From assembly GCF_003086295.3 (NCBI RefSeq), contig NC_092054.1, positions 39,377,294 through 39,441,293 of the forward strand: a DNA stretch of 64,000 nt, written 5' to 3'. The notes under the pieces are model-generated. The model searched no databases. It had not been told where the DNA came from and worked only from the letters and a program-made list of their open reading frames with translations. Positions within the stretch are counted from its first letter, which is position 1. The number at the start of each line of letters is the position of its first letter. This document shows, in pieces, positions 543 through 57,800 of this stretch. The stretch comes from Arachis hypogaea. Its lineage: Eukaryota; Streptophyta; Magnoliopsida; Fabales; Fabaceae. A program made the position numbers and the translations under genes.

Positions 543-590
543 TGTCAAGCTAGTGACACTAAAAGAGCGCTTGTTAGGAGGCAACCCAAC
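543..590 (+). other. Post-pol double hairpin (element Z)
   Basis: Hairpin 1 is TGTCA/TGACA (543-558). Hairpin 2 is GTTAGGAGGCAACCCAAC (573-590), whose 6-bp stem has one A-C mismatch. They are joined by a spacer containing GAGCGCTTG and lie 15 nt after the pol stop. The same two-hairpin layout recurs after pol, or after the truncated ORF, in A, B, C, D, E and F. Confidence 0.7.
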
Positions 591-2048
591 TAAAGGTAGT
601 TTTCTTCTCCTAAACTATTTCAATAAAAAGGTTGAGTAGATTTATCTATAGTGCAAGGAGCTAAGTTTTGTGTTGCACACCAAAATAATTTAAGGGTGAA
701 TGAAGGATGCTAAGTTCGGTGTTCCACCCAAAATCTTATTTAAAAACACATTTCAACCCTCTGCATAGATGGTTACTAGCTCCAAGCGATCAGGGAAATC
801 ACTAAACCATTGTCTGTCTTCTAGTTGTTAGTTTTATTACTTTTAACAAAAGCACATTTTTTTCATGTAACTGATGCATCATAAGACAGTAGCAAGGGAC
901 TAAGTTTGGTGTTCCCTCACCAAAGTAACTTCAAGAAACTACAATAGTTCATGCATGCTAACCATTTGCCTAAGTGCTTGGAAAAATAAGCAACTTTTGA
1001 TAATTATGTAGAAAAGACACTCAGCCTCTTAAAAGAATCATCACCAAAGGAAATACAAAAGTAAAAGATGATGATGACAAAAGAAAAGCTGCAAGACACT
1101 CCTGGAAAGTTGTATTGTCACAAAATTCACTTTGCTTTGAAATGTTCTGAATGAGAAGTTGCTGTTTGCCTTGATGTTTAGTTTAAATAATGCAAATTTT
1201 GATGTCTGCACTAGTTTAAATGCTTGTCTTCATCTTCATCTGCATTAAGCCCATGTCTTGTTTCCCTTTTGGCATCAATAAGAGAAAATGTTTGAAAAAA
1301 GAAAGTGATTGTCCAATGTGGTAGGAATTAGAATGAAGTTTTGTGGTGGTAATTTCTTGATTGGATGATAAGCTCAATAATAAAAGCTGCATAATAGAAT
1401 GTTCTATGTAGGGTGAACTAAGTTGCTGTCATAAAACCTTTTATTAATGAACATCCCTGCAAAATGAAGAAAAGTGAGAAAGAAAAGAAAAAAAAGAAAC
1501 AAACAATAAGGCTAGACACCAATAGCTTGGACCTTAGGACATATGCCTGTTGTGCTTCTTGTACTAGGATATGCTTGGACAATTAGGTTCTGATGAGTCT
1601 TTTAAAACTTGGTAACTTGGATTAACTAATCCGGGATTATCAACCGAAAGTCCATTATCAAGAGCAACCTAGTTACAAAACATTTAGTAACCCAAAGAGG
1701 TGCTGGGCATCAATGTTCCTAAGAAGAATTGTGAGCCAAGTGTCTGTAGTGAAGAAGTGTTGAGCAAAATTGAGCCAAAAGGCTGCTGCAACACTTGACA
1801 CTGAGTTGCCATTGAGAAATAAGCTTTCTAAACAAAAGAAAGAAAGAAAAATTAAAAAGGGATCAAGCAAAGAGCAAGGCATTATGACAGCAACTCTAGT
1901 GAATAATCAAAAAGGCATTTCTTATCTATCAGCAAAGAATAAGTGAGCTGCATCTTGTCTGCATAAAATCCCATGGTTTTAATTCAATTACCTGCTAAAT
2001 AAGGATATATGCTTCTCGGTTTCATTTAATTCCTTCTCATGTTTAGTG
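591..2048 (+). other. Non-coding 3' region of element Z
   Basis: There is no credible ORF. Three copies of a TAAGTTTGGTGT-like motif lie near 662, 710 and 902, each followed by C-rich CACC or CCACC. An A/G-rich tract lies at about 1463-1505, followed by a block (GGCTAGACACCAATAG) also present in A at about 30830. Conservation between Z and A without coding potential suggests cis-acting sequence. Confidence 0.6.
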
Positions 2049-2085
2049 CTTGCTTGGGGACAAGCAAGTTTTAAGTTTGGTGTTG
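2049..2085 (+). promoter_or_regulatory. RGGA hairpin and polypurine tract of element Z
   Basis: An 8-bp perfect stem CTTGCTTG/CAAGCAAG closes a GGGA tetraloop (2049-2068). It is followed at once by TTTTAAGTTTGGTGTTG, which abuts the LTR. By position this is the plus-strand priming site. Confidence 0.8.
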
Positions 2086-5746: not shown

Positions 5747-6735
5747 TTAGGAATCATAGGAAAAGTAGCACACAAAAGGCAAATAATAGAGCAAATACAA
5801 TGTATACTTGGAGCCAATATAAAATGAACAAGCGTTTAATTGAGGAAGTATGCATAGTGGTGTGGTATGATAAAATTATACGCGCGAGTAGAACACACAT
5901 AACGGCCGATTAAAATGGCACCCACACAGTCAAAAAGTAAGCATGAGTTCCTCAATTAAATGGCCTAAGATGCAAGCAATAAATGAGTATCAATTAAAGA
6001 CAAGCAAGCTTAGGCAATTACAACAAGAGTGAATTGAATTCTAAGAATATTGGATATTGAAATGTGCAAGTAAAATCGCAAGATTAAGAAAAAATAGCAC
6101 AACAACAATAACCAATTCACTAATGAAAAGAACATTACTTATTCATCCTCAAGAATAATGAAATAATCACATGGATAAGGTGCTTGTTACAAAAAGTGAC
6201 AAGTTTGATAAGAATCAAGTCAAGTTAATTCAAACAAATGCAAAGCATTAACAAGAAACAAGTACCTTGTTATGTGATTATATTGATTTAAAACCCATGA
6301 TGAACAAGCAATTCAATTCAATTCACTAAATTCAATATGTACTTGTTAAAAAGTTCCACCAAATAAGAGACAGATGTCATTTTTCATATCAATTTGGTGT
6401 TAGTAACTCAAAGTAATGAACAAGTACATTATTGAAATTTCATTCCAAAATAACATGATCATCATTCAAAAGTGCACAAATCTTGTTTAGGATGCCAAAC
6501 AAGGATATAGTCTAACACATATGGTAGCTACAACACATGAATAAAACAAAAAGTTCATCTAGGTATTATGTCAAACACATGGTATGCGGTGCACAAATTC
6601 AACAATTTCAAGCAAAAATTTGAGAATCAATAACCCATAGATAAAAAAATTGAACACTTGCAATCCAACAACAACTAATTAACCAAAATTTAAGCTAGAT
6701 TACCAAAATTAAATAAAGAAAATGAAAATTAAGCA
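5747..6735 (-). other. Non-coding AT-rich region of element E
   Basis: It lies between the pyrimidine-rich tract and the ORF3 start on the sense strand and corresponds to 42540-43500 in C (shared TCGGCCGRTT-type block at about 5903 and 42676). No ORF is supported. Confidence 0.55.
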
Positions 6736-6737
6736 AG

Positions 6738-6860
6738 AAAATAAACAAGACAAAGAAGAGTAAAGAGAGAAGAAGAAGAAGAAAGAAGAAGAAGGAAGAG
6801 GGGAGAAGAGGAGTGGTGGCGCGGTGGTGGCGCCGCCGACAGCAATGGTCACCGGAAGAT
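6738..6860 (-). repeat. GA-rich tract (pyrimidine-rich on the sense strand), element E
   Basis: GAAGAAGAAG-type microsatellite runs are followed by a GC-rich stretch (GGTGGCGCGGTGG). C has the same arrangement at 43600-43760, and F has a purine-rich tract at 53840-54090. B has an equivalent pyrimidine tract before ORF3. Confidence 0.55.
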
Positions 6861-6954
6861 GAGGGCGGGCTAGGGTAAAGGGGGTGAAGAAGGAAGAAAG
6901 GGAATGGGGGGAGGGTCTGGCGTAATAGGACATCCTTCCTGATTAACGCCTAGT

Positions 6955-7300
6955 ACGCGACATGTGCGTACGCACAAGGACGTATGCACACGCACAAAAG
7001 GGAAAAACAAAGGGGATGCGAACGCACAGGGTGTGCGAGCGCTCTTGACAGGAAGGGTGTAAAGGCATATGCGTACGCACAACAGGAGACTCTTCTCTCT
7101 TTTTTTTTAAACAGGGCATAAAGATCATGTGTGCGTACGCACAAGTTCTATGTGTACACACAAGGGAAAAAATTTAGGGTCCACGTGCACAAGCATGTGC
7201 GAATGCTCCCAACAGAAGGCGTGCTGATAAGTGTGCGTACGCACAGATGTCAAAATCTGGGGAAAGTGTGCGTGGGCACAGGTGTGTGCATACGCATACT
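6955..7300 (-). repeat. Internal palindrome array of element E (TGTGCGTACGCACA family)
   Basis: About a dozen imperfect copies of a self-complementary GTGCGNNCGCAC core lie here, for example at about 6964, 7072, 7131 and 7231. The same motif occurs in the U3 of E and C. The array lies between the double hairpin (7539-7590) and ORF3. Confidence 0.75.
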
Positions 7301-7538: not shown

Positions 7539-7590
7539 GTAGGGTGTCTCCCACCTAGCACTTTAGTTTAAAGTCCTTAAGTTGGACTTT
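7539..7590 (-). other. Post-ORF double hairpin (element E)
   Basis: On the minus strand, hairpin 1 has the 7-bp stem AAAGTCC/GGACTTT (7570-7590). Hairpin 2 is GGTGGG/CCTACC with loop AGACAC (7539-7556) and keeps pairing through one G-U wobble. The spacer contains AAAGTGCTA. The sequence ACCATGG follows immediately. Confidence 0.7.
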
Positions 7591-16757: not shown

Positions 16758-18380
16758 TGAGCAGATAATTTATACGCTTTTTGGCATTGTTTTTAGTATG
16801 TTTTTAGTATGTTTTAGTTAGTTTTTATTATGTTTTCATTAGTTTTTATTTAAAAATCACATTTTTATATTTTACTATGAGTTTGTGTGTTTTTCTGTGA
16901 TTTTAGGTATTTTATGGCTGGAATTGAGGGACCTGAGCAAAAATCTGATTCAGAGGCTGAAAAAGGACTGCAGATGCTGTTGGATTCTGACCTCCCTGCA
17001 CTCGAAGTGGATTTTCTGGAGCTACAGAAGCCCAATTGGCGCGCTCTCAATTGCGTTGGAACCTGGGCTTTCCAGAAATATATAATAGTCCATACTTTAC
17101 CCACGATTTGATGGCCCAAATCGGCGTTCCAAGTCAGCTTAAGAATTCTGGCGTCAAAACGCCAGAACTGGCACAAAAGCTAGAGTTAAACGCCCAAACT
17201 GGCACAAAAGCTGGCGTTTAACTCCAAGAAAAGTCTCTACATGTGAAAGCTTCAATTCTCACCCCAATCACACACCAAGTGGGCCCGGAAGAAGATTTCT
17301 GCATTAATTACTTATTTTTGTAAACTCTAGGCTACTAGTTCTCTATAAATAGGACCTTTTTACTATTGTATTTTCGTCTTGGTTCTTCAGGTTCCCTCTC
17401 TGGGGCCGAAGCCAATGACCACCATTATCACTTTTGTATTTTCAACGGTGGAGTTTCTACACACCATAGATTAAGGTGTGGAGCTCTGCTGTTCTTCATG
17501 GATTAATGCAAAGTACTATTGTTTTTCTATTAAACTCAAGTCTATTTCTTCTCCAAGATATTCATTCGCACCCAAGAACATGATGAATGTGATGATTATG
17601 TGACACTCATCACCATTCTCACCTATAAATGCGTGTCTGACAACCACTTCCATTCTACATGCAAACAAGCTTGAATGTGTATCTCTTGGGTTTCTAATAT
17701 AAGATTAGAACCTTCGTGGTATAGGCTAGAATTATTGGCGGTCATTCTTGAGATCCGGAAAGTCTAAACCTTGTCTGTGGTATTTCGAGTAGGATCTGGG
17801 AAGGGATGACTGTGACGAGCTTCAAACTCGCGAGTGTTGGGCGTGTGACAGACGCAAAAGGATCAATGGATCCTATTCCAACATGATCGAGAACCGACAG
17901 ATGATTAGCCATGCGGTGACAGCGTGCGTAGAACATTTTCACTGAGAGAACGGAAAGTAGCCATTGACAACGGTGATGCCCAACATAAAGCTTGCCATGG
18001 AAAGGAGTATGAATGATTGGAAGAAGGCAATAGGAAAGCAGAGGTTCAGGAGGAACAAAGCATCTTCATACGCTTATCTGAAATTCCTACCAATGAAATA
18101 CATAAGTATCTCTATCTCTATCTTTATTTTATGTTTTATTTATCTTTAATTATCAATCCTCCATAACTATTTGAATCCGCCTGACTGAGATTTACAAGAT
18201 GACCATAGCTTGCTTTAAGCCGACAGTCTCCGTGGGATCAACCCTTACTCACGTAAGGTATTACTTGGACGACCCAGTGCACTTGCTGGTTAGTTGTGCG
18301 GAATTGTGACAAAGTGTGATTCACGTTTGAGAGCTCCAAGTCTTTGGCGCCATTGTTGATGATCACAATTTCGTGCACCA
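16755..18380 (+). repeat. Solo LTR S of the B family (1626 bp)
   Basis: It begins TGATGAGCAGATAATT and ends CGTGCACCA. It is flanked by ACGGC at 16750-16754 and 18381-18385. No internal sequence is present, so the element was lost by LTR-LTR recombination. U3 palindromes start at 17149, 17181 and 17212, close to the 31-bp spacing seen in B. The TATA box is at 17344. It interrupts the integrase of A between TNG and the following QAE. Confidence 0.95.
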
Positions 18381-18994: not shown

Positions 18995-19042
18995 TGTCAA
19001 GCTAGTGACAATAAAAGAGCGCTTGTTGGGAGGCAACCCAAC
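18995..19042 (+). other. Post-pol double hairpin (element A)
   Basis: Hairpin 1 is TGTCA/TGACA around AGCTAG. Hairpin 2 is GTTGGG/CCCAAC around AGGCAA (19025-19042), with a perfect 6-bp stem. The spacer is ATAAAAGAGCGCTT. It lies 15 nt after the pol stop. This is the best-preserved copy of its type. Confidence 0.72.
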
Positions 19043-22783: not shown

Positions 22784-24580
22784 GTGGCAAAGAGGATCCC
22801 TATTATTTTCTATTTTCTTCTTTTTCATATGAGCTGGAACAAGGATAAGAACATTCTTGTTGAAGCTGATTCTGAACCTGAAAGGACTCTGAAGAGAAAG
22901 CTAAGGGAAGCTAAAGCACAACTCTCTGGAGAAAATCTGACAGAAATTTTCGAAAAAGAAGGAGACATGGCCGAAAATAATAACAATGCAAGGAAGATGC
23001 TTGGTGACTTTACTGCACCAAATTCCAACTTACATGGAAGAAGCATCTCAATCCCTACAATTGGAGCAAACAATTTTGAGCTAAAGCCTCAATTAGTTTC
23101 TCTGATGCAACAGAACTGTAAGTTTCATGGACTTCCATCAGAAGATCCTTTTTAGTTCTTAACTAAATTCTTGCAAATCTGTGATACTGTTAAGACCAAT
23201 GGGGTTGATCCCGAGGTCTACAGGCTTATGCTTTTCCTGTTTGGTGTAAGAGACAGAGCTAGAATATGGTTGGACTCTAAACCTAAAGATAGCCTGAACT
23301 CTTGGGATAAGCTGGTCACGGCTTTCTTAGACAAGTTCTTTCCTCCTCAAAAGCTTAGTAAGCTTAGAGTGGATGTTCAAACCTTCAGACAAAAAGAAGG
23401 TGAATCCCTCTATGAAGCTTGGGAGAGATACAAGCAACTGACCAAAAAGTGTCCTTCTGACATGCTTTTAGAATGGACTATCCTGGATATATTCTATGAT
23501 GGTCTGTCTGAATTATCTAAGATGTCATTGGACCATTCTGCAGGTGGATCCATTCACCTAAAGAAAATGCCTGCAGAAGCTCAGGAACTCATTGACATGG
23601 TTGCAAATAACCAGTTCATGTACACTTCTGAAAGAAATCCTGTGAGTAATGGGACGCCTCAGAGGAAGGGAGTTCTTGAAATTGATGCTCTGAATGCCAT
23701 ATTGGCTCAGAACAAAATATTGACTCAGCAAGTCAATATGATTTCTCAGAGTTTGAATGGATTGCAAGATGCATCCAACAGTACTAAAGAGGCCTCTTCT
23801 GAAGAAGAAGCTTATGATCCTGAGAACCCTGCAATAGCAGATGTGAATTACATAGGTGAACCCTATGGAAACACCTATAATCCATCATGGAGAAATCATC
23901 CAAATTTCTCATGGAAGGATCAACAAAAGCCTCAACAAGGCTTTAATAATGGTGGAAGAAACAGGTTTAGCAATAGCAAGCCTTTTTCATCATCCACTCA
24001 GCAACAGACAGAGAATTCTGAGCAGAATCCATCTAGCTTAGCAAATATAGTCTCTGATCTATCTAAGGCCACTCTAAGTTTTATGAATGAAACAAGGTCC
24101 TCCATTAGAAATTTAGAGGCACAAGTGGGCCAGCTGAGTAAAAGAGTCACTGAAACTCCTCCTAGTACTCTCCCAAGTAATACAGAAGAGAATCCAAAAA
24201 GAGAGTGCAAGGCCATAACCTTACTTGGTATGGACGAACCCAGAGAGGAGGAGGAGGACATGAATCCTAGTGAGGAAGACTTCCTGGGACATTCAGTGAC
24301 CAATAAGGAGTTTCCCTTTGAGGAACCAAAGGAATCTGAGGCTCATGCAGAGACCATAGAGATTCCATTCAACTTGCTTCTGTCCTTCATGAGCTCTGAT
24401 AAGTATTCTTCCTCTGAAGAGAATGAAGATATTATTGAAGAGCAAGCTGCTAAGTACCTTGGTGTAATCATGAAGTTGAATGCCAAATTATTTGGTAATG
24501 AGACTTGGGAAGATGAACCTCCCTTGCTCACCAATGAACTGAATGCATTGGATAGGCAGAAATTACCTCAAAAAAAATAG
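22784..24580 (+). pseudogene. gag: gag of element B
   Basis: It is one frame with a single internal amber at 23153-23155, where Gln (CAG) is expected. The first ATG that fits is at about 22829 (MSWNKDKN). Features in order: acidic/basic N-terminus, NNFELKPQLV, the gag core with LQICDTVKTNG, W-SW-KLVTAFLDKFFPPQKL and YEAWERYKQL, the NPSWRNHPNFSW tail, and an acidic linker reaching the protease. No CCHC knuckle is visible. A second TAG at 24578 separates it from the protease in the same frame. It is only two substitutions from a continuous gag-PR ORF. Confidence 0.87.
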
Positions 24581-24595
24581 GATCCTGGTAAAATC

Positions 24596-25159
24596 TTAAT
24601 ACCCTGTATCATAGGCACCATGACCTTTGAGAAGGCTCTGTGTGACCTGGGATCAGGAATAAACTTAATGCCACTCTCTGTAATGGAGAAACTTGGGATC
24701 TTTGAGGTGCAAGCTACCAGAATCTCATTAGAGATGACAGACAACTCAAGAAAACAGGCTTATGGACAAGTAGAGGACGTATTAGTAAAGGTTAAAGGCC
24801 TTTACATCCCTGCTGATTTCATAATCCTAGACACTGGGAAGGATGAGGATGAATCCATCATCCTTGGAAGACCCTTCCTAGCCACAGCAAAAGTTGTGAT
24901 TGATGTGGACAGAAGAGAGTTAGTCCTTCAACTGAATGAGGACTACCTTGTATTTAAGACTCAAGGTTCTCCTTCTGTAACCATGGAGAGGAAGCATAAA
25001 AAGCTTCTCTCACTGCAGAGTCAACCAAAGCCCCCACAGTCAAAATCTAAGTTTGGTGTTGGGAGGCTACAACCAAACTCTAAGTTTGGTGTTGAACCCC
25101 CACATTCAAACTCTAAGTTTGGTGTTGGGAGGTCCCAACAATGCTCTGAACATCTGTGA
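24596..25159 (+). pseudogene. Protease domain of element B with SKFGV repeats
   Basis: Aspartic protease region: CIIGTMTFEKALCDLGSGINLMPLS has the active-site Asp in DLGSG (A has DLGAS), and ILGRPFLATA closes the fold. The ORF then ends in a tail with three copies of SKFGV, each encoded by a TCTAAGTTTGGTGTTG-like repeat (about 25046, 25079 and 25112), and stops at 25159. All of RT, RNase H and integrase is missing. Gly after DLGS instead of the Ala-Ser form may still allow activity; I cannot tell. Confidence 0.85.
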
Positions 25160-25177: not shown

Positions 25178-25226
25178 TGTCAAGCTATTGACATTAAAGA
25201 AGCGCTTGTTGGAAGGCAACCCAATG
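25178..25226 (+). other. Double hairpin after the truncated pol (element B)
   Basis: Hairpin 1 is TGTCAA/TTGACA with loop GCTA (25178-25193), longer than in A because A-T pairing is restored at the sixth position. Hairpin 2 is TTGG/CCAA around the AGGCAA core. It is retained although the pol sequence upstream is deleted. Confidence 0.7.
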
Positions 25227-27200: not shown

Positions 27201-28330
27201 GGTGGACCCGTTCCATAATCTCCTTATTCTTATTTTTCTATTTTTCGTTTACTATGCTTCATGTTTAATTATGTTTCTGTCTTTACTATATGATCATTAG
27301 TGTCTAAGTGTCTATGTCTTAAAGCTATGAGTGTCCTATGAATCCATCACCTCTCTTAAATGAAAAATGTTTTAATTACAAAAGAACAAGAAGTACATGG
27401 TTTTAAATTCATCCTTGAAACTGGTTTAATTATTTTGATGTGGTGACAATACATTTTGTTTTCTGAATGAATGCTTGAACAGTGCATATGTCTTTTGAAA
27501 TTGTTGTTTATGAATGTTAAATATGTTGGCTCTTGAAAGAATGATGAAAAGGATAAATGTTATTAATAATCTGAAAAATCATAAAATTGATTCTTGAAGC
27601 AAGAAAAAGCAGTGAAGAACAAAGCTTGCAGAAAAAAAAAGAAAAAAAAAAGAAAAAAATGCGAAAAAAAGAGAAAGAAAAAGAAAAAAAGCAAGCAGAA
27701 AAAGTCAAAAGCTCTTAAAACCAAAAGGCAAGAGCAAAAAGCCAATAACCCTTTAAACCAAAAGGCAAGGGTAATAAAAAGGATCCAAGGCTTTGAGCAT
27801 CAGTGGATAGGAGGGCCTAAAGGAATAAAATCCTGGCCTAAGCAGCTAAACCAAGCTGTCCCTAACCATGTGCTTGTGGCGTGAAGGTGTCAAGTGAAAA
27901 CTTGAGACTGAGCGGTTAAAGTCGAGGTCCAAAGCAAAAACAGAGTGTGCTTAAGAACCCTGGACACCTCTAATTGGGGACTTCAGCAAAGCTGAGTCAC
28001 AATTTGAAAAGGTTCACTCAGTTATGTGTCTGTGGCATTTATGTATCCGGTGGTAATACTGGAAAACAAAGTGATTAGGGCCACGGCCAAAACTCATAAA
28101 GTAGCTGTGTTCAAGAATCAACATACTGAACTAGGAGAATCAATAACACTATCTAAATTCTAAGTTCCTATAGATGCCAACCATTCTGAACTTCAATGGA
28201 TAAAGTGAGATGCCAAAACTATTCAAGAGGCAAAAAGCTACTAGTCCCACTCATCTGATTGGAGCTAAGTTTCATTGATATTTTAGAATTTATAGTATAT
28301 TCTCTTCTTTTTATCCAATTTGATTTTCAG
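27201..28330 (+). other. Non-coding 3' region of element B
   Basis: It contains an A/G-rich tract (27595-27700) and a block GTGCTTGTGGCGTGAAGGTGT (about 27870) that recurs, inverted, in element D and in looser form in A and Z. The short ORF over the A/G tract is low complexity and not credible. Confidence 0.6.
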
Positions 28331-28367
28331 TTGCTTGGGGACAAGCAACAATTTAAGTTTGGTGTTG
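28331..28367 (+). promoter_or_regulatory. RGGA hairpin and polypurine tract of element B
   Basis: Stem TTGCTTG/CAAGCAA, loop GGGA, then CAATTTAAGTTTGGTGTTG abutting the LTR. Confidence 0.8.
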
Positions 28368-30059
28368 TGATGAGCGGATAATTTATACGCTTTTTGGCAT
28401 TGTTTTTACACAGTTTTTAGTATGATTTAGTTAGTTTTTAGTATATTTTTACTAGTTTTTAAATAAAATTCACATTTTTGGACTTTACTATGAGTTTTTT
28501 TTTCTTTGATTTCAGGTATTTTCTGGCTGAAATTGAGGGACTTGAGCAAAAATCAGATTCAGAGGCTGAAGAAGGACTGCATATGCTGTTGGATTCTGAC
28601 CTCCCTGCACTCAAAGTGGATTTTCTAGAGCCACAAAAATCCAAATGGCGCGCTCTTAATTGCGTTGGAAAGTAGACATCCAGGGCTTTCCAGCAATATA
28701 TAATAGTCCATACTTTGCCCAAGTTTAGATGACGCAAACTGGCGTTCAACGCCAGCTTTCTACCATATTCTGGCGTTAAACGCCAGAAACAAGTTGCAAA
28801 GCAGAGTTAAACGCCAGAAACAAGTTACAAACTGGCGTTCAACTCCAAGGAAGACCTCTACACGTGAAAGCTTCAATTCTCAGCCCAAGCACACACCAAG
28901 TGGGCCTCGGAAGTGGATTTCTGCATCATTTACTTATCTCTGTAAATCCTAGTAACTAGTTTAGTATAAATAGGACTTTTTACTATTGTATTCGGGGAAT
29001 CTTTGATCAGTTTTATGCTATCTTAGACCTTTATGGGGGCTGGCTATTCGGCCATGCCTGAACCTTCATCACTTATGTATTTTCAACGGTAGAGTTTCTA
29101 CACACCATAGATTAAGGTGTGGAGCTCTGCTGTTCCTCATGAATTAATGCAAAGTACTATTGTTTTTCTATTCAATTTAAGCCTATTTCTTATCTAAGAT
29201 ATACACTTGTTCTTCAACCTGAGGAAGGTGATGATCCGTGACACTCATCATCATTCTCACCTATGAACGCGTGCCTGACAACCACTTTCGTTCTACTTGC
29301 AATAGCTTAAGTGCGTATCTCTTAGCCTCCTGGTTCATGACGCATGGTTGCCTCGCCTGACAACCGAGCCTTCCATTCCATGAGATCAGAGTCTTCGTGG
29401 TATAGGCTAGAATTATTGGCGGCCATTCTTGAGATCCGGAAAGTTTAAACCTTATCTGTGATATTCCGAGTAGGATCTGGGAAGGGATGGCTGTGACGAG
29501 TTTCAAACTTGCAAGTGCTGGGCGTAGTGACAGACGCAAAAGGATTACTGAATCCTATTCCAGTATGATCGAGAACCGACAGATGAATAGCCGTGCGGTG
29601 ATAGCACATTTTGGACCATTTTCACTGAGAGGACGGGAAGTAGCCATTGACAACGGTGATGCCCTACATAAAGCTTGCCATGGAAAGGAGTAGGAATGAC
29701 TGGATGAAGACAGCAGGAAAGCAGAGGTTCAGGAGGAACGAAAGCATCTCTATACGCTTATCTGAAATTCTCACCAATGGATTACATAAGTATCTCTATC
29801 CCATTTTATATTTTAATTATCAATTCACTATAACCATTTGAATCCGCCTGACTAAGATTTACAAGGTGACCATAGCTTGTTTCAAGCCGACAATCTCCGT
29901 GGGATCAACCCTTACTCACGTAAGGTCTATTACTTGGACGACCCAGTACACTTGCTGGTTAGTTGTGCGAAGTTGTGACAAAGAATTAAGATTATGAACG
30001 TGCGTATTAAGTTTTCAGCACCGTTACCAAGGAATGAACGATCACGATTTTCCACACTA
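28368..30059 (+). repeat. 3' LTR of element B (1692 bp)
   Basis: It is nearly identical to the 5' LTR; the last bases read CACACTA instead of CACACCA. Close similarity of the pair indicates a recent insertion. Confidence 0.95.
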
Positions 30060-30064
30060 ATAAT

Positions 30065-31371
30065 GCTAGCCTCAAGCAATCAGATAAACTAATTATCCAA
30101 TCTGCTATTTCAGAGTTTTTTTAGTTTTATTACCTTTAGCAAGGAAAAAGGATTTCACATATGGTTAATTTGCTGCATGAGAAACACTGGCAAGGAACTA
30201 AGTTTGGTGTTCACACACCAAAATAAGTTCAAAAGCCCACAATTAAGCTTTGCATATTAACCGGGTACCTAAAGGGCTTGAAAAGCAAGCAACTTTTGAG
30301 GAGTATGCAGGAAAATAGCCAATAAATTAAAGAACCTCTGCATTATGACTCAGAAGGGGCACAACAGAAGGAAGAATGGAAAGCTGCAACCCAACAGGTT
30401 GTATTTACACTTGATCCTTGTTGTTGTGAAATGTTTTAATTCAGGGATTTCTTTATGTCTGGCTAGAAGGTTCATTCAGTTGTAAGTGGAAGTACATGTT
30501 AAAGAAAGCTATCTGCATAATCTTGTCATCCTTCATTAGCTTGAGTATTTTGTCTTGTTCCCCTTGCTATTTTAATAAAAGAAAAAAAGATTTGATTTAG
30601 AAAAGTAATTGTTCAATGTTGCAAAAGTTAGGATGAAAGTTAGTGGTGGTATGTGTTTGATTCAATTGTTAGCTCACAAAATAAATGCTGCATAATGACA
30701 TGTTCTTTGAAGTCTAAGCTAGTTTGCTGCTATGAAGCCTTATATTATTGAAAATCCCTTGAAAAAGAATCAAAACAAAAAGAAAAAGAAAAAGAAAAGC
30801 CAAAAAGTGGCAAAGAAATAAACAATAAGGCTAGACACCAATAGTTTGGACTCTGGGACACATGCATGTGGTGTTTTTGTACTAGGATATGCTTGGACGA
30901 GTAAGTTCTAAGGAGTATTTCAAAACTTGGCCACTTAGATCAACTGATTTGGGATTGCCAACTGAAAGTCCACAATAAAGAGCAACCTAGCTACAAAACA
31001 CTTAGTTACCCAAAGAGATGCTGGGCACCAATGATCCTAGGAAGAAAAAGGTGAGCCATGTGTCTGTGGTGAAGGAATGTTGAGTACAATTAAGCCAAAG
31101 ACTGCTGCAACATTTGCCACCAAGCCTTCAATAAGTAATAAGCTCTCTAAGCAAAAGAAAGAAGGAAAAAGCTAACAAGGGAAGTAAGAAGAAAGCAAGG
31201 CATTGTAACAGCAACCTTAGTGAACCCTTGAGGAAACATTGTTTATTTAGCAGCAAGTAATAAATGAGCTACCATTGATCTGCATAAAACCCCATAAACC
31301 AAGTTCAACTATCTGCTAAATAAGGGCATCCATACTTCTCTATTTCATTCTATCTTATCTTATGTTTAGTG
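30065..31371 (+). other. Continuation of the non-coding 3' region of element A
   Basis: It resumes after B and matches Z from about 770 to 2048. It has a TAAGTTTGGTGT motif at about 30199 and an A/G-rich tract at about 30768-30815. No ORF is present. Confidence 0.65.
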
Positions 31372-31408
31372 CTTGCTTGGGGACAAGCAAGTTTTAAGTT
31401 TGGTGTTG
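31372..31408 (+). promoter_or_regulatory. RGGA hairpin and polypurine tract of element A
   Basis: Perfect 8-bp stem CTTGCTTG/CAAGCAAG, loop GGGA, then TTTTAAGTTTGGTGTTG up to the LTR. Confidence 0.8.
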
Positions 31409-35981: not shown

Positions 35982-37495
35982 TGGTATGGGATTTATAACC
36001 CACAAACTAATCGGCAAGTGCACTGGGTCGTACCAAGTAGTACCTCAAGTGAATGAGGGTCGATCCCACGAGGATTGATGGATTAAGCAACAATGGTTAA
36101 GTGATTTACTTAGTTAGACAAACAGAAATTGGTGTTTGAAGGTTCAAAAGCATTAACAGTAAATTCAGTAAATAAGAAAGCAAGCAGTAAACAAGTTGTG
36201 AATGATATATGGAGAAACAGTTAAGGCTTCAGAGTTATCTATTTTCCGGATTGACTTTTCTTACTAACTATTTTAATCATGCAAGATTTAATTCATGGCA
36301 AACTATAAGTGACTAAACCCTAATTCCTTAGACCTTTTTAGTCTCCTCTAAAATTCATCAACCGCCAATTCCTTGGTCACTTAATTCCAATTAGAGGGTG
36401 AAGTTCAATTCTAGTTTATTTGCCACAAAAACCCTAATTACCCAAATATAAGAAGATTATATGTCACGTATCCCGTTAAGTCCAGATAATTAGAAATTTA
36501 GGAGAATATGTTTTCAAGCTGTTGTTCAAGTAAAGAGCTTTTCCAAGTTATACAAGAACTCAATTAGAACAAGGGTCATACTTCCATTCCACCGAGGTTC
36601 ATAAAATAAAGAACAAAAATAATTCTTGAATTATAAATCAGTACATGAATTAAAATAGAAAAATAATAGTATCAATCCATACAATACACAGAGCTCCTAA
36701 CCTTAACAGTGGAGGTTTAGTTGCTCATGGTTCAGAGAGAAAAACTAGGATTCGTTAAAACTGTAAATTTCCGAATGAGGTAGAAGAGAAGAGAGCCCGA
36801 AGGGATGATTCTTTTCTCTTTTTATATCTAATCCTAATTAATGTAAAATATATTTCCTAAAAACTAAATAATATCTTTTCCTAATTATAAATAAAATAAA
36901 AGTTTAAATCCAAATTAATTTAATCAATCCGTGGGCCTTTGGAATGAATTGGGGACCACTTGAGTTATTGAGGTCCACGCTGAACTAGGAAATTCTCAAG
37001 TTCAATGTGGATGAGGTAGTGGCTAAACTTGTGCTTTTCTTGAGTCCACGCTGAACTTGGAAATTCTCAAGTTCAGTGTGGAGTGGCGTGCAAAACTTCC
37101 TTTGGTGCGTTGATGCTAGCACTGAACTTGAATGACTTCAAGTTCAGCGTGGAGGAGGCAGTGTGAAATGGAAGAAAAGAGTATACTATTATATATCATT
37201 GGAAATCTTTGGAAGTTAGCTTTCCAATGTCACTAGAATCACATCAATTGAATCTCTGTAACTCAAGTTATTTCTGTTTGAGTGCAAGGAGGTCGGAGTT
37301 GATAGCATCATTCTCTTTCTTCCTTTTCTGCTACAAAACTCCGTCAAATCCATCTGAATGCTACCTGAAATAAACAGGAATTGCAAACAACTCAAAGTAG
37401 CATTCATAGTGGCTAAAGGTAATTAAATCTTGATTAAACTCAACAATTTGAATGCAAATTTACTAAGAAAAGATAAAGAAGATGCTCACGCATCA
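35982..37495 (-). repeat. 3' LTR of element D (1514 bp)
   Basis: U3 contains three 36-38 bp inverted repeats of type CCACGCTGAACTT...AAGTTCAGCGTGG, starting at about 36975, 37046 and 37117 (period 71). A TATA-like TATAAAAAG (minus strand) lies near 36830. Confidence 0.92.
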
Positions 37496-37533
37496 CAACA
37501 CCAAACTTGAATTGTTGCTTGTCCTCAAGCAAC
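37496..37533 (-). promoter_or_regulatory. RGGA hairpin and polypurine tract of element D
   Basis: On the minus strand: perfect 8-bp stem GTTGCTTG/CAAGCAAC, loop AGGA, then AATTCAAGTTTGGTGTTG up to the LTR. Confidence 0.8.
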
Positions 37534-38562
37534 CAAAATTAGTACATGATAAAGATGTGAATTTGCATGAGAGGTGAGAGTTCAGTTAGGTTCATGTCTC
37601 TTCTTGAAGTGGGGTTTACTATTGTAATTCAGAACAGTTTTGGCATCTCACTCTCCTTTGAATTAGAGGAATGTCACTGTCATTCAGAATTAGGATCCAG
37701 ATCATATTATGAATTTTCTGATCTTTATACTTCAATTTAATCCTTGAACACATCAAATTTCCTTTAATTCTCTTTTCTTAGGTGCTTTGCACCTTGAGCC
37801 TAACCGTGACTTTAAATATTTTGTCTTAAACTTCACTTGACACAAAAACACCACAAGCACTTAACTGGAGAACTCTCTTTAGGTTCTTATTTTTCTTTTA
37901 GTTACTCCCAGACAGTTGGGCTCAAAGCCTTTGGCATACTCTGTTAAATACACTTGATCTCAACTCTTAGTGCTCTGTCTCAAGGATTACTTGACACAAT
38001 TACACCACAAGCATATGACTATGGAAACAACTCTTTGAGCTTTTAATCATGTCTGACCTTCCTAGTCATTGATGCTAAGAGCCTTGGACCTTGCTTTTAT
38101 TTTTCTTTTGCTTCAAGGATTAAGCTTTTGTTTAATTCAGAAAATTCATAGTAGTTCTCTAAATTCATATTTCTTATGCACCAACATCCCTTAATTCAAA
38201 TTCAACTATGCACTGTTCATATCATGCATTCAGAATCACAAATAATACCACCACATTTAAGTAAATAAGACTACTCTTAAATATAACTCAATTTCTCATG
38301 TAATACATCACTTCTTTTCTTTTCTTTTTAATTTCAAGCTCAGTGAGCAATACGTGAGACATTTTATTTTTTTTAACTAAAAGCAAATAATAGAATGAAA
38401 CTAAATCCAAGAACTGAAAGTACTAAAGATCATGCAGGCAATCAAAGCAACAGAAAATAGAAGACAACAAAATAAGAACGGAAGGGAAAATAGAATGAAA
38501 TGAACTCAACCACCTCAGTTATGCTGGTGGCCATCTCATTCCTCCGACTGTGCTCCTCTAAC
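37534..38562 (-). other. Non-coding 3' region of element D
   Basis: Two copies of CTTGACACAA(N)CACCACAAGCA lie at about 37836 and 37990, matching a single inverted block in B (about 27870). No ORF is present. Confidence 0.55.
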
Positions 38563-38781: not shown

Positions 38782-38829
38782 GTTGGGTTGCCTCCCAATA
38801 AGCGCTTCTTTAATGTCATTAGCTGGACA
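38782..38829 (-). other. Double hairpin of element D
   Basis: On the minus strand, hairpin 1 is TGTC/GACA around CAGCTAAT and hairpin 2 is TTGGG/CCCAA around AGGCAA. The spacer is TTAAAGAAGCGCTTA. It is kept in an element that has lost all of pol. Confidence 0.68.
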
Positions 38830-44440: not shown

Positions 44441-44491
44441 GGTGGGGTGTCTCCCACCTAGCACTTTGGTTTAAAGTCCTAAGTTGGACTT
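44441..44491 (-). other. Post-ORF double hairpin (element C)
   Basis: On the minus strand, hairpin 1 is AAGTCC/GGACTT around AACTTA and hairpin 2 is GGTGGG/CCCACC around AGACAC. Both stems are perfect. The spacer contains AAAGTGCTA. It lies 9 nt after the gag-like stop. ACCATGG follows. Confidence 0.72.
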
Positions 44492-50576: not shown

Positions 50577-50613
50577 ACCTCCCCATACTTAAACATTAGC
50601 ATTTCCTCATGCT
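50577..50613 (-). promoter_or_regulatory. RGGA hairpin and polypurine tract of element F
   Basis: On the minus strand: stem AGCAT/ATGCT, loop GAGGAA, then AATGTTTAAGTATGGGGAGGT running into the LTR. Confidence 0.75.
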
Positions 50614-52018
50614 TAGCTTAAGGAGATAAAATAAATGAGTAGGGAAATGTAAGACTCATGCAATGCAATGCAACCTATATATATGAATGCAACTACATGA
50701 TTCTTGTCTACTTGGTTAAAAGTAAATAGGTTCTTCAAGACAAACATAAATCAAATTCCACTAATTCAAATTATATAGCAAAAACAGGTAAAATTGTAAG
50801 AAGACAGCTCATGAAAGCAGGGAACATAGATTTAAGCATTGAACCCTCTCTGATGGTGTATATGCACTCTAGTCACTCTAGTGTATAGGTAATCACTATT
50901 TCCTTCTCTAATCATGCTTTCTAAATTTTGTTCTTCACCTAACCAATCAACAATATTTAATGTACTAATACAAACATCATGAGGTCTTTTCAAGGTTGTA
51001 ATGGGGCTAAGGTAAGGGTAAGGGTATACATATGGCTAAGTGAGCTATAAATTGAATCTTTGACTAATCTAAGCTTTCACCTAATATACATACATTCTAT
51101 ATAACTCTAGAATCATGCCTAGCTACCCATAATTTTCACTTTTGCATTATATACTCATGTATCAACTTTTCTTTTAACTTATATCACATATGCATTGACC
51201 TTGGAGCTTATCTTTACTTAAAATTGGGGTAATTTTGTCCCCTTATTTATTTATTTATGTACTGAATATTTTTGGATTTTTTTTAAATAAACATAACATT
51301 ATCAATGCACATAGATTTTCAATTTTTCTAGTTTCACATGAGTAGGTACTCAAATTCCTATTATTTTATCATGACACATTCCCTTATAAACCCTTGTTCC
51401 CACAATCTTCCCATACTCAATTAACACACAATTTCTATCTTAAGCTAGCCAAAGATTCAATTAGGATATTTAATTATTTTTCTGCTTAAGGCTAGTAATG
51501 TGGTAAAATATAGAACAAATGGGAAAAAAGCTCAAAGTGGCTAACAAAGGTGATTGAAAGGGTAGCTTATATGGGGTAAGTGAGTTAAAACAATTAATGG
51601 CCTCAATCATATGCATGCATATAACACATTAAACATTGGACATATAGGATGAAACAAAATAAAGATTACAATCATAGAGAAGTGAACACACAAGAATAAA
51701 ATTTATGGTTAAATAATGTAACCATGTAGTTAGGCTCAAAATCTTACGGGTTGTGTGTTCTTATCTTTTTAAGCTATGTTCCAATTACAACTTCAAACAA
51801 ATTTAACACAAAAGTTTGATTTAAATTAGTGAAATTTTCCAAAAATAGGGTCTTAAAAAGAAACTTATTATTTTTCAATCAAGTAGAACATGCATGTAAA
51901 TAACATATTTCTATGCAATTTATCCTATTCTAAATAAAAGAAAAACTAACTAAATATCCTATTTTATTGGTATTTAAGGAAAAATAAATTACCTCCGGAA
52001 GTCAGGTAATGACCAACC
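50614..52018 (-). other. Non-coding 3' region of element F
   Basis: It is 1.4 kb with no ORF. It shares ordered blocks with C (34430-35240), including AATGGCCTCAATCAT near 51597. Confidence 0.6.
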
Positions 52019-52059: not shown

Positions 52060-53292
52060 TTAGGAACAAAGGGGGCTGGTAGCAGCATCTCCACTGTTGG
52101 GACCATCATGACTCCCTGTGCTGGTAAATGAAGTGAAGTCCAGGGTGTCTGGATCTTCTTTAGGTGGGTGGTTACCAACAAGTAGCTCCTTGAGGTATGT
52201 AAATCTACGCTTGTTACGGCGCTCTCTTTGCTTTCCTTTTCGGTCAAGCCGATCTAGCCTCTCAAGTATCTGATGGAGTAGTTGGTTTGTTGAAGGTACT
52301 TGTGATGTGGAAGAAGAGGGGATATCTTCTGCTGGTTCTGTGCTCCGGTTGATAGTGGCTGCTGGAGGTCTGATATACTTCCCGTTAGGGACGTATTGAT
52401 CATCTCGTGGAATCATGGCCTTGGTGTCCCCAGCTCTATAGGAGACTCCGGCTGCTGAGACTAAATCTGAAACCAAGGCGGGAAAAGGTAGGTTTCCCAC
52501 AATTTGTACGTGTCCCATAGCATGCCGAATGTGTCTTGGTAAATTAAGGTGCTGGTCTGTAAGGATACACCAAAGTAAAACAGCCATGTCTGCAGTGAAA
52601 GAGGACTCGTGAGTGCTCAGAAAGACGCAATGGGACATGATCTGTGCCCATACTCGAGCCTCCAAGGTGAGTGCTGAAGCCAATATGCCCTTAGATCGGG
52701 AACGATGGTATCCGTAGATCCATATGCTTCCAGGTTGTGCGATAACTCTGAGAACGGTGTCCCAGTCGAATTGGTATGTCTGGCGCTTAAGTGAGGTTTC
52801 TTGAAATGCATCCAATCCTTCTGGAGTAGGGGGGAGATATAAAGCTCGCTGAATGGCTTCTTCTGTTATAGGGACTTGCTTCTGACGGACATAAACAGAC
52901 TGCATAGTTGGCATGTGAAAATTGGAGTAAAATTCGACTACCCATGAAAGATTAACCTGCCGTGGCTGTCTCCATAGGAATCCCCATTGTCTTCGCTCAA
53001 TGTGGGGCTCAACAAATTCAACAATGTTGGTCGGGAGGACGAGAAGGTATTCGTTATTATAATTCCTTTCAGCCAGGATGGGGAACATCTGCTCACAGTA
53101 GCAGTTAGTGAACCGCGCAGTGTCCTTTGCTGGAAAGGCTTTCTCTTTTTCATCGGCCTTGATGATTCTCTTGATTCGTTTTGTTGAGGGTTTCACCGTT
53201 GTTGAAGATGGTTCCGCCACTAATGCTCTTTTTGTTCCTCTCCTTGCTGGTGGTTTGGGAGTGGCTTTCTCTTTACCTTTCTTGGTGGCCAT
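52060..53292 (-). CDS. ORF3 of element F, plant-transposon-protein-like domain (410 codons)
   Basis: It is an intact ORF in the env position. The N-terminus is strongly basic (MATKKGKEKATPKPPARRG, then RIKRIIK), suggesting nuclear or nucleic-acid contact. The core has WVVEFYSNFH (about residue 114), a PITEEAIQRALYLP stretch, the LEARVWAQIMSHCVFLSTHES region and LPFPALVSDLVSAAGV (about 265-280). The C-terminus has LLHQILERLDRLDRKGKQRERR, a short coiled coil with a basic patch. The domain order matches B ORF3 although residues have diverged widely. No signal peptide or membrane helix is evident. A 3' splice acceptor lies directly upstream of the ATG, so a spliced message is plausible. The function is unknown. 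Confidence 0.83.
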   Translation of the reverse strand: MATKKGKEKATPKPPARRGTKRALVAEPSSTTVKPSTKRIKRIIKADEKEKAFPAKDTARFTNCYCEQMFPILAERNYNNEYLLVLPTNIVEFVEPHIERRQWGFLWRQPRQVNLSWVVEFYSNFHMPTMQSVYVRQKQVPITEEAIQRALYLPPTPEGLDAFQETSLKRQTYQFDWDTVLRVIAQPGSIWIYGYHRSRSKGILASALTLEARVWAQIMSHCVFLSTHESSFTADMAVLLWCILTDQHLNLPRHIRHAMGHVQIVGNLPFPALVSDLVSAAGVSYRAGDTKAMIPRDDQYVPNGKYIRPPAATINRSTEPAEDIPSSSTSQVPSTNQLLHQILERLDRLDRKGKQRERRNKRRFTYLKELLVGNHPPKEDPDTLDFTSFTSTGSHDGPNSGDAATSPLCS

Positions 53293-53293
53293 C

Positions 53294-53312
53294 CTGAAAA
53301 AAGAAAAAGAAA
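53294..53312 (-). promoter_or_regulatory. Predicted 3' splice acceptor before F ORF3
   Basis: On the minus strand it reads ACTTTCTTTTTCTTTTTTCAG, then G and the ATG. It is a textbook polypyrimidine tract with CAG|G. Confidence 0.6.
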
Positions 53313-54110
53313 GTAATATGTAAAGCTAAGGGTTCGAGCAAGAGAGCGAATATTATGGGTGATAATCAATGCACGGTAAAGAAGGATGTCGTTAACATAT
53401 GGTCTAGACTACATGTGAAAAGTTTATCAAAGGTAATATAGCAAGTGCATGTGATGGCAATTAAATGCAAGATGTTTATTGGCATGCCGGCAAAGGCATG
53501 AGTAGCATAGATTAAGCATTCAACGTCCAAGTTAGATTACCAACCCTTTCAAACTAATAACCTGTTTGTATTGACAATTATATTTAATTAATAAAATATA
53601 AAAGGGGTTTTTTGAAAAAAACAGGCATTAAAGTAGTATAATAGAATAATGTGCAATGCCATACTGGCTTTTTCACAAACACATAGCATGCATGGTAAAT
53701 ATGTTATTGAAAGTAGTAAATTGAACATGCAAGCAACCCTTTAAGAAGTGATATTAATTGTCAAACAATTTTACAATAGTTCACAAGAAAAATATAGAAG
53801 AATATAATCACCTAATTAAATTTCTAACACCAATTAAAGGAATAAAAAAAAGACATAGAAAAGAAAGGAAAAGAAGATATAGATAATGAAAGTGAAAAGA
53901 AAAAGGAAAAGAAAACATAAATATAAATAAAAGTAATAATGGGAAAATAAAAAGAAAGAAGGAAAAGAACCTTGAGAATGTATGTGAAAAATAAGGGAGG
54001 AGAAAGTAAAAAGTGAGAAAGAATAGAGAAGGAAGAATGGGGAAGAAAGAAATAAGAAGGGAAAAGAAAAATTAGGATTTGGAGAAGAAAAGATATAATA
54101 TTTGGCTGAT
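53313..54110 (-). other. Non-coding region of element F with purine-rich tract
   Basis: From about 53840 to 54090 the plus strand is almost all A and G (pyrimidine-rich in sense). The rest is AT-rich. Long overlapping frames here are low-complexity artefacts. Confidence 0.55.
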
Positions 54111-54670: not shown

Positions 54671-54807
54671 TTTTTTTTTGTGCAATATGCAAATGCAAAT
54701 GCAGGCTATATGCAGCTATATGCAAAAATTATGAGAAGAGTTAATAACAAAAATTAAATAGAATAAAATAAAATAAAACTAAGACTGAAACAGAACGATC
54801 ATACCAT

Positions 54808-54859
54808 GGTGGGTTGTCTCCCACCTAGCACTTTGCTTTTACGTCCTTAAGTTAGACGT
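54808..54859 (-). other. Post-pol double hairpin (element F)
   Basis: On the minus strand, hairpin 1 is ACGTC/GACGT around TAACTTAAG and hairpin 2 is GGTGGG/CCCACC around AGACAA. Both are perfect. The spacer contains AAAGTGCTA. It starts 9 nt after the pol stop. ACCATGG overlaps the 3' arm. Confidence 0.73.
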
Positions 54860-54868
54860 TCTTCAGAC

Positions 54869-57800
54869 TCATTCTGCTTCTGTTGGTGGGTCTTCCAAGA
54901 GGAAGACCTCTAGTTCCTTGTGATCCTTCGTCTTTTCACCATGATAGAGCTTCAGGCGATGTCCATTGACCTTTAGAAATTTGGAGCTAGAAGGATGACA
55001 CAGGTGAAAAACTCTGTATGGCTCTGCCTTCTCTACTCTATAGGGACCTTCCCATCTTGATCTCAGTTTACCTGGCATAAGCCTCAGTCTAGAGTTATAA
55101 AGAAAAACTAACTCCCCTGGTCTGAATTCTCTTCTTTTTATGTGCTTGTCATGGACAGCCTTCATCTTCTCTTTGTATCACCTGAAATTGTCATATGCTT
55201 CTAGTCGAAGATTTTTCAGTTCTGCTAGTTGCAGCTTTCTTTCAACACCAACTTCCTCAAAATTCATGTTGCACTCCCTCACAGCCCAGAAAGCCTTGTG
55301 TTCCACCTCCACTGGAAGGTGGCAAGCCTTTCCGTATACTAAGCGGAAGGGGCTCATCCCAATGGGTGTTTTGTACGCTGTTCTATATGCCCAGAGTGCA
55401 TCTTGTAGCCTGGCACTCCAGTCCTTCCTATGAGGTTTTACTATCTTCTCCAAAATGCACTTAATCTCTCTGTTAGAGACTTCTGCTTGCCCATTGGTCT
55501 GGGGATGGTAAGATGTTGCTACTTTGTGAACTAACCCATGCTTCTTCAGTAATCCTGTTAGTCTCCTGTTACAAAAGTGAGTGCCTTGATTGCTCACGAT
55601 TGCTCGTGGTGATCCAAAGCGAAAAATAATATGGTTTCTAACAAAGGAAATGACAGTGTTAGCATCATCAGTACGGGTAGAAATTGCTTCCACCCATTTA
55701 GAAACATAATCTACGGCTAACAATATATAAAAGTAACCATTAGAATTTGGAAATGGACCCATGAAGTCAATGCCCCAAACATCAAAAATTTCACAGAAAA
55801 GCATAATCTGTTGAGGCATCTCATCCCTCTTGGATATATTACCAAACCTTTGGCAAGGGGAACAAGATTTACAAAATTCAGCAGCATCTTTAAAAAGACT
55901 AGGCCACCAGAATCCACAGTCTAGAATTTTTCTAGCTGTTCTTTGAGGCCCAAAATGTCCTCCACTCTCAGATGAGTGGCAGGCCTCTAAAATGGACTGG
56001 AATTCTGATTGAGGCACACACCGTCTAATTACCTGGTCAGCACCATACCTCCATAAATATGGATCATCCCATATATAATATTTGGACTCGCTTTTCAGCT
56101 TGTCTCTTTGATGCTTAGTAAAATTTGGAGGAAAAGTGTGGCTAACTAGATAATTAGCTACAGGTGCATACGAAGGAACTACTTCAGATACTGCATACAA
56201 GCTATCGAATGAAAAATTATCATTTATAGGAGTGGAGGCATCCTTAATGTGCTCAAGGTGACTCAAGTGGTCTGCCACTAAATTCTGGTTACCACTCCTA
56301 TCCTTAATTTCTAAATCAAATTCTTGCAGCAGCAGTATCCAACGTATTAGCCTTGGTTTGGACTCCTTTTTAGCTAGTAAATATTTTAGAGCTGCATGAT
56401 CTGAGTACACTACTACCTTAGTACCAAGTAAATAGGCTCAGAATTTATCCAGAGCAAAAACAATAGCTAGAAGCTCTTTTTCAGTAGTAGTGTAATTAGA
56501 TTGAGCAGCATCTAAAGTCTTAGATGCATAAGCAATTACAAAAGGATCCTTACTATCGCGCTGAGCCAGCGCTGCTCCTACTGCATGGTTGGAAGCATCA
56601 CACATAATTTCAAATGGCTGGCTCCAGTCTGGTCCTCTCACAATTGGAGCTTGAGTCAGGGCGATCTTCAGCTTATCAAATGCTTGCATACAACCCATAC
56701 TGAACTCGAACTCAATATCTTTCTGCAGCAATCTGGATAAAGGCAATGCTACCTTACTAAAGCCCTTAATAAATCTCCTGTAAAAACCTGTATGGCCAAG
56801 GAACGAATGGACTTCCCTCACGGAGGAGGGGTAAGGTAAACTAGAGATAACATCCACCTTTGCTGGATCTACAGAAATGCCAGTATTAGACACAACATGT
56901 CCTAGTACAATTCTTTATTTTACCATAAAGTGACATTTTTTAAAATTTAATACATGGTTTGAACTAACACATCTGTCTAACACTCTAGATAAACTATCCA
57001 AGCAAAGGCTAAATGAATCACCATATACGCTAAAATCATCCATAAAAACCTCCATACAGTTCTCAATGAGATCAGAGAAAAGACTCATCATGCACCTTTG
57101 GAAAGTAGCTGGTGCATTGCATAAGCCAAAGGGCATTCTCTTATAAGCATACGTTCCAAAAGGACATGTAAAAGTAGTCTTTTCTTGATCTTTAGGAGCT
57201 ATATGAATTTGAAAGTAGCCTGTATAACCATCTAAAAAGCAGTAATAGGATTTACCTGATAGGCGATCAAGCATCTGATCAATGAATGGTAAGGGGTAAT
57301 GATCCTTGCCAGTGGCTTGGTTGAGACGCCTATAGTCAATGCAAACTCTCCATGAATTCTGCACTCTAGTTGTCAGGAGCTCTCCATGCTCATTTCTTAT
57401 TGTTGTGACTCCAGACTTCTTGGGCACCACTTGTACTAGACTGACCCATTCACTATCTGAGATGGAATAAATGATATCTGCTTCAAGTAGTCTGGTTACT
57501 TCTTTCTTGACAACTTCTAAGATGGTGGGATTCAATCTTCTTTGAGGCTGACGGACAAGCTTTTCTCCCTCTTCTAAGAATATTCTATGCTCACAAACTT
57601 GAGGGCTAATGCCTACTATATCCACCAAGCTCCATCCAATTGCTCTCTTATGTTTTCGCAGCACATTAAGCAGTTGTTCTTCTTGTTGGGAAGTGAGTTC
57701 CCTTGCAATGATAACTAAAAACTTCTGCTTATCCTCAAGATAAGCATACTTGAGGTGTGGAGGGAGGGGCTTTAATTCCAATTTCTTTTCATGGCTAGGT

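Follow-up and report, generated by a model that had tools for sequence, protein, structure and literature searches.

A block of about 50 nt, consisting of two hairpins and followed by a U-rich tract, recurs after stop codons in LTR retroelements of Arachis hypogaea, and is very probably a cis-acting RNA element of whatever role. As to that role, we infer, tentatively and with somewhat less than even confidence, a stop-anchored element that stabilizes the mRNA or insulates it from nonsense-mediated decay (NMD). The wider proposal, in which an undescribed family of stop-anchored RNAs (pseudoknot, hairpin and U-rich tract) serves as an NMD or termination insulator in Athila-type elements of flowering plants, is more doubtful still. 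If true, one compact element would tie the survival of transposon RNA to host RNA surveillance. Plant LTR RNAs with 3' regions of several kilobases are expected targets of NMD, yet they are hugely numerous, and the block is a concrete candidate for the means by which plant LTR elements escape decay, as well as a 50-nt marker for annotating its element group. No description of the block was found in the literature searched; an earlier mention, e.g., in the 2002 work on Athila4 and Calypso, is possible, and that paper, by Wright and Voytas, is reportedly the most relevant earlier one. Elements of this kind, cis-acting RNAs that follow a retroelement stop, are known, and it is the structure and the host range that appear to be new.

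The window, i.e., the whole stretch of 64,000 nt that was analysed, had been claimed to hold seven copies of the block, in elements called Z and A to F, and all of them were found in their places and on their strands. The features, with hairpins 1 and 2 abbreviated to HP1 and HP2, are the following:

54869..54871, minus strand: stop codon TGA of pol in element F, 9 nt before HP1
54841..54859, minus strand: HP1 of F, ACGTCT-AACTTAA-GGACGT
within 54841..54859, minus strand: HP1 loop ACU of F, 5' side of the proposed pseudoknot
54827..54832, minus strand: spacer AGTGCT of F, its AGU being the 3' side of the proposed pseudoknot
54808..54825, minus strand: HP2 of F, GGTGGG-AGACAA-CCCACC
54748..54807, minus strand: U-rich tract 3' of the F block, 60% T over 60 nt
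55178..56437, minus strand: pol stretch of F with the RNase H end, integrase zinc-binding and integrase core
52060..53325, minus strand: env-like ORF of F (Pfam PF20167), some 1.5 kb 3' of the block
543..590, plus strand: block copy Z, pol stop TGA 14 nt before HP1
18995..19042, plus strand: block copy A, pol stop TGA 15 nt before HP1
25178..25226, plus strand: block copy B, stop TGA 18 nt before HP1
44441..44491, minus strand: block copy C, pol-like last codons, stop TGA 8 nt before HP1
38782..38829, minus strand: block copy D, no ORF of at least 28 codons ending within 60 nt
7539..7590, minus strand: block copy E, no ORF of at least 28 codons ending within 60 nt

A covariance model of the seven window copies and of L008, a plant-type contig from a bacterial assembly, recovers all seven and no eighth strong copy in the window, and Rfam at gathering score gives no match at any block, its sole match in the window being snoR71. 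The domain order in F (gag PF03732, RVT_1, RNase H, integrase, then PF20167) is the Athila-type Ty3/gypsy layout, and the host element is presumably Athila; no protease was matched among the ORFs of F that were scanned. The integrase (INT) ORF of F is 58-67% identical to 17 chosen plant-type proteins, and tblastn of the INT ORF returned nothing in phages and only distant matches (<30% identity) in four plasmids. Upstream of the B block lie gag and a below-cut-off protease match, with no reverse transcriptase (RT) or INT found. The last codons of the C ORF resemble the pol end of F.

Both hairpins can be drawn in all seven copies, as the first-pass annotation had it, but their pairing is imperfect in several. 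The outermost drawn position of HP1 is unpaired in Z, A, B and L008, the HP1 closing pair of D is C.U, and HP1 of F is better drawn as ACGTCT/GGACGT with a U.G pair, while HP2 contains A.C in Z, A.C and G.U in B, A.C at the outer pair in D, G.U in E and U.U in L008. In the eight-row alignment of the seven window copies and L008, standard pairs make up 90.6% of the pair cells, and the covariation score of 0.360, vs. 0.130 in shuffles, is reached by 0/500 of them; pairs changed on both sides and further pair types are not clearly above the shuffles, of which 166/500 and 42/500, respectively, reach the observed value. HP1 and HP2 are the top two by fraction paired among the gap-poor helices of the alignment (1,606 of 5 bp and 1,353 of 6 bp). 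Minimum free energy (MFE) z-scores stand out for F (-3.35) and C (-2.77) only, and are weak for A (-1.26), E (-1.10), B (-0.78), L008 (-0.18), D (0.00) and Z (+0.52). The lowest-energy fold of Z is without HP2, that of E places HP2 in another register, and that of L008, computed on a fragment 2 nt short, has no HP1 and a 4-bp HP2. Mean identity between families is 0.72 in the block, vs. 0.54-0.64 in the flanks and 0.57 for the shuffled block. Peptide coding was considered as a source of this conservation and rejected: one frame of Z, A, B and D gives a VKLVTLKERLLGGNPT-like peptide, but the corresponding stretch of C, E and F is interrupted by an indel or stops, so that coding does not account for the block.

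Covariation was set against phylogeny with an R-scape-like null, in which substitutions on a FastTree tree were re-dealt over the columns in 200 simulations. The covariation sum over the 15 structural pairs is 119.4, compared with a null mean of -2.5 and a null maximum of 96.4, so that 0/200 simulations reach it, and sliding the pairing partners along the alignment gives sums of just -14.4 to 16.3. The rows (the unparsable L011 left out) were parsed on GUC...GAC-like, RRCU and AGY motifs, and this anchoring favours the core by construction. The HP1 pairs H1.6 and H1.2 rank 1 and 2 of 1,225 pairs, with E of 5.7 and 8.8, and in a second motif-anchored alignment H1.6 has E 4.3 and H1.2 E 0.99; no single pair is significant at E < 0.05 in either of these alignments, the best values being 5.7 in the first and about 1 in the second. 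The earlier claim of covariation thus holds above phylogenetic expectation for the structure as a whole and fails for every single pair. The fraction of standard pairs is not a fair test against this null, because the null ignores column conservation. At HP2 position 2, the 66 parsed copies have U-A 42 times, G-C 15, C-G 4, U.G 4 and U.U 1. The fetched copies all come from contig C1; the patterns used to find them hold the spacer and HP2 constant, and some of these copies were picked for their rare variants. Only the 18 copies from arbitrary genome stretches are free of such selection bias. In this unbiased sample the outer pairs of HP1 are standard at position 2 in 8 and at position 6 in 12 of the 17 parsed copies. 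Outer HP1 pairs are broken in large families: the 100 listed copies without T at HP1 position 2 include 28 with A.A, and G stands opposite C in 48/56.

Beyond the two hairpins, a possible pseudoknot and the U-rich tract are additions to the earlier description. In all eight rows the HP1 loop is RRCU and the spacer AGY, with GCU facing AGC in Z, A, B, D and L008, and ACU facing AGU in C, E and F, and we propose that the loop RCU and the spacer AGY could form a compact pseudoknot with an A-rich crossing loop. The loop-spacer helix is one of two, among 2,163 gap-free helices of 3 bp, that are fully paired with a change on both sides. The loop-spacer pair is standard in 66/66 distinct parsed copies (GC 41, AU 16, GU 9), a count in which only A.C could have failed because the parse, which required RRCU and AGY, admitted just R and Y there. 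Under the phylogenetic null this pair ranks 15 of 1,225 in covariation, with E about 32, and among 100 listed genome copies two of the three with an ACU loop have an AGC spacer, i.e., A.C, which counts against the pseudoknot.

The block is abundant in the peanut genome. The core pattern TAAAN{2,9}AGYKCTNNKTGGGAGRMAMCCCA has 22,856 + 22,925 = 45,781 matches in the 2.557-Gb home assembly and 0 + 0 in the reversed control, and 20 arbitrary 10-kb genome stretches contain 18 copies of at least 45 bits, the next match having 13.9 bits. In one copy of this arbitrary sample (L094), the last 20 pol residues are identical to those of the Arachis stenosperma protein P0002. Looked for outside the home clade, the block is present in L008 and, judged by peptide, in apple. 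L008 and L009 are plant-type contigs in two bacterial assemblies, 99.7% identical to each other, whose pol has an integrase 60% identical to that of F; L010, from a third bacterial assembly, has a related pol and no block found by the covariance model. The model built on the window alone, searched in L008, L009 and L010, has as its sole matches the block in L008 and L009. The L008 block scores 34.4 bits (E 1.4e-7) with structure and 15.8 bits with a sequence-only model, a gain of 18.6 bits, and begins 12 nt after the TAG that ends a gag-pol ORF of 2,004 codons; from this ORF it is about 2.9 kb to the terminal polypurine tract (PPT)-like site. Three Malus pol proteins run beyond the end of other Malus relatives, with Cys or Arg at that place, into LEASSGWKTLKQALLGRQPM, and they are the only ones among 209 proteins (399,135 position-frames) able to encode the block pattern. 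To judge from their sequences, they seem to have lost their stop and to read into the block, the Cys and Arg suggesting a former UGA. Plant-type retroelement sequence was seen in bacterial records (L008, L009, L010, P0086 and P0123) labelled Solirubrobacter, Geminicoccus, Nomurabacteria, Salmonella and Modestobacter. In IMG/VR, pattern matches to TTGGGAGGCAACCCAA in 7 stretches look like chance, none being accompanied by the rest of the block; a degenerate block pattern had 0 matches there and pol queries found no relatives.

The position of the block relative to stop codons was examined in 68 distinct copies (7 of the window, L008 and 60 fetched) with a look-back of 60 nt. In 62/68 an ORF of at least 28 codons has its end no more than 60 nt from the core, although a flank of about 150 nt leaves many frames uncertain; no ORF is given by the remaining 6/68, nor by 3/18 unbiased copies at a look-back of 45 nt. 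In 21 of the 22 copies with a pol-like ORF end, as judged by eye, the GUC core follows the stop at 10-16 nt, the exception being L061 with 44 nt. These 21 copies use TGA 10 times, TAA 10 times and TAG once, and in 13 of them the pol tail past the conserved motif was found to be 9-35 residues long. ORFs of at least 100 codons end 10-19 nt before the core in 12/12 cases of the 68-copy set and in 7/9 of the unbiased set, the other two ending at 38. Eight long ORFs belong to other families: a Pfam scan gave protease below the cut-off in three of B type, no match in five, and no RT or integrase in any of the eight, and seven of these ORFs stop 16-19 nt before the core, L088 doing so at 38 nt. The stop distance is thus kept although the protein end is not, across pol-bearing and other families alike. 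Together with the gain from structure on L008 and the covariation sum that none of the 200 simulations attains, this closeness to stops of ORFs without RT or integrase match speaks for the cis-acting RNA element proposed in the first-pass annotation.

The 60 nt after the block contain 56% T in five window families, vs. 31% at random (0/20,000 reaching the value), and 65% in L008. What the pol-bearing members have in common is a stop, a fold, a U-rich tract and an mRNA with a long 3' region, and a role tied to env, to an internal PPT or to one stop codon would not fit the members seen. The block may protect a long mRNA or guide the end of translation. On our proposal it would be the module that starts the 3' untranslated region of Athila-type LTR retroelements, with the order stop codon, HP1 with its core GUC/GAC, spacer AGY, HP2 of the plan KUGGG-AGRNAA-CCCAM, and U-rich tract. 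A ribosome at the stop would have the folded block just outside its mRNA entry; fold and U-rich tract would mark the stop as genuine, probably by excluding UPF1 or by recruiting an RNA-binding protein, and an mRNA with kilobases of 3' region would thereby escape NMD. Such insulation would be analogous to that by the stability element (RSE) of Rous sarcoma virus (RSV).

According to PMC2925335, the RSE lies just after the gag stop and acts with any stop codon, and a 400-nt stretch following the RSV pol stop can take its place there; the RSE is pyrimidine-rich (PMC6277124). The block resembles it in lying directly after a retroelement stop, with a very long 3' region and any stop codon, and is likewise trailed by a U-rich tract, where protein binding is putative. 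A site directly after the stop, with any of the stop codons, is indeed what was found, save for D, E, L061, the two copies at 38 nt and those without any ORF found. The RSE, however, has a minimal length of 155 nt and was tested in cells, whereas the block measures about 50 nt, comprises two hairpins and perhaps a pseudoknot, and is known from sequence only, and the likeness is a functional precedent that implies no kinship. In plants, according to PMC6277124, NMD resistance rose when a readthrough structure or an unstructured pyrimidine-rich region followed the stop, and the TCV and PEMV2 elements, properly placed, stabilized an NMD-sensitive reporter. Several observations argue against an insulator, and particularly a folded one: in the same paper NMD resistance was lost when a stable hairpin formed after the stop, and was not conferred by the TCV element placed 7 nt downstream of a stop, and in PMC2925335 the 3' region of RSV pol gave no protection after a premature stop. 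To these must be added that D and E have no nearby ORF end, that L010 with its related pol is without the block, and that outer HP1 pairs are often non-standard in the unbiased sample. The "hairpins" of the ATHILA paper PMC11410651 are synthetic RNAi constructs and not the block.

Packaging, splicing control and recoding are each less likely than insulation. A packaging or dimerisation signal, by which the block would mark genomic RNA for Gag and its near self-complementary AGYGCU could start a dimer, is improbable. It would suit the retention of the block where the preceding ORF has no RT or integrase match, and the spacer AGCGCU is palindromic, as is AGUGCU with G-U pairs; packaging, however, has no need for a short stop distance while the length of the pol tail varies, and the L008 spacer AGCUCU is no palindrome. 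Somewhat less probable again is a control of splicing or export, in which the block would shield a donor after HP2 or an acceptor ending the U-rich tract and so keep genomic RNA unspliced. A GTA follows HP2 within a few nt in many copies, TTTNTAG|GTTGATG-like acceptors end the U-rich tract in many B-type copies, and PMC2829016 reports predicted splice acceptors in BAGY2 and Athila elements. Donors and tract ends of this kind occur in some families only, though, with several families and L008 lacking the GTA when read by eye, and neither site would explain the stop spacing; nor is there an env-like match in the three L008 ORFs tested.

Recoding, with a pseudoknot about 10 nt after the stop promoting readthrough or reinitiation, is unlikely. 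The spacing and the proposed pseudoknot shape are reportedly like those of retroviral readthrough pseudoknots, and readthrough would extend the ORF by 46 codons in L008, 36 in Z and 23 in A. The folded readthrough and frameshift elements of TCV, PEMV2 and MoMLV, which likewise stand close after a stop, act by recoding, whereas the block occurs with TAA, TAG and TGA rather than with the defined stop of a readthrough pseudoknot, and the second in-frame stop of F follows one codon later. Reinitiation, one of the roles suggested in the first place, is disfavoured: the env-like ORF lies far downstream, about 0.8-1.5 kb 3' of the block in B and F, and none of the three L008 ORFs tested gave an env-like match. 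Equally unlikely is the absence of any present function, the block being a relic of descent and of copy-number bursts whose covariation stems from few lineages. The failure of every pair to reach E < 0.05 and the frequency of broken outer HP1 pairs among families would agree with a relic; the covariation sum beyond all 200 nulls, the block identity between families above that of flanks and shuffled block, and the prospective match of L008 by the window-only model would not.

Least probable is an aid to plus-strand DNA synthesis from a second, internal PPT after pol, for although a PPT-like motif stands 71-83 nt past the block in Z, A and L008 and an extra PPT is published for the linkers of Athila4 and Calypso (PMC2829016), none was found within 900 nt at 2 mismatches in C and F, matches in E are poor, and in D and B the motif comes only at 210 and 768 nt. 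That internal tract occupies the same element part as the block, between pol and the 3' LTR, but is a primer sequence and not a fold, and was not found near the C and F blocks. The conserved Sirevirus motifs described in the same paper are, like the block, short, downstream of pol and kept in divergent plant retroelements; unlike it, they consist of copies of the PPT together with an inverted repeat at the junction with the 3' LTR, and belong to Ty1/copia elements.

Some further features of these elements were noted. A G/T-rich motif, TTAAGTTTGGTGTTG (or TCAAG...), abuts the 3' LTR starts at 2071, 28353 and 31394 (+) and 37510 (-), at the place expected for the PPT, and has internal copies at 661, 710, 900, 19112, 19161, 25047, 25080, 25113 and 30198, three of them in tandem with a 33-nt period before the block of B; CACCAAA comes after several of these copies, which could fold. 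B-type elements (25113-25140 in the window, and fetched copies) carry, directly upstream of the block, GTTGGGAGG-N-CCAAC-like inverted repeats that resemble HP2. Another hairpin, with a GRGGAC-like loop, can be placed immediately upstream of the 3' PPT-like site in A, Z, B, D, F and L008 (window 31350-31408(+), 2027-2085(+), 28310-28368(+), 37495-37553(-) and 50577-50635(-); L008 8905-8978), its stems being CTTGCTT/AAGCAAG in A and Z, TTGCTT/AAGCAA in B and D, GCAT/ATGC in F and ACATT/AATGT in L008. It is present in the lowest-energy folds of A, Z, B and D, unclear in F and absent in L008, and its z-scores against mononucleotide shuffles are -2.7 to -3.7 in the five window elements and -0.01 in L008. 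Between pol and the 3' end, L008 has an antisense ORF of 148 aa at 6683-7126 (-) whose Pfam matches all fall below threshold (best ATG16, E 7e-4); Retand elements typically have antisense ORFs (PMC11963269). The published primer for Calypso and Diaspora is tRNA-Asp, and a tRNA-Asp gene is predicted within a repeated LTR-like stretch of the window at 17807-17888 (-). The snoR71 match, at 23360-23467 (-) with 42.4 bits (gathering 40), is antisense to the gag ORF of B.
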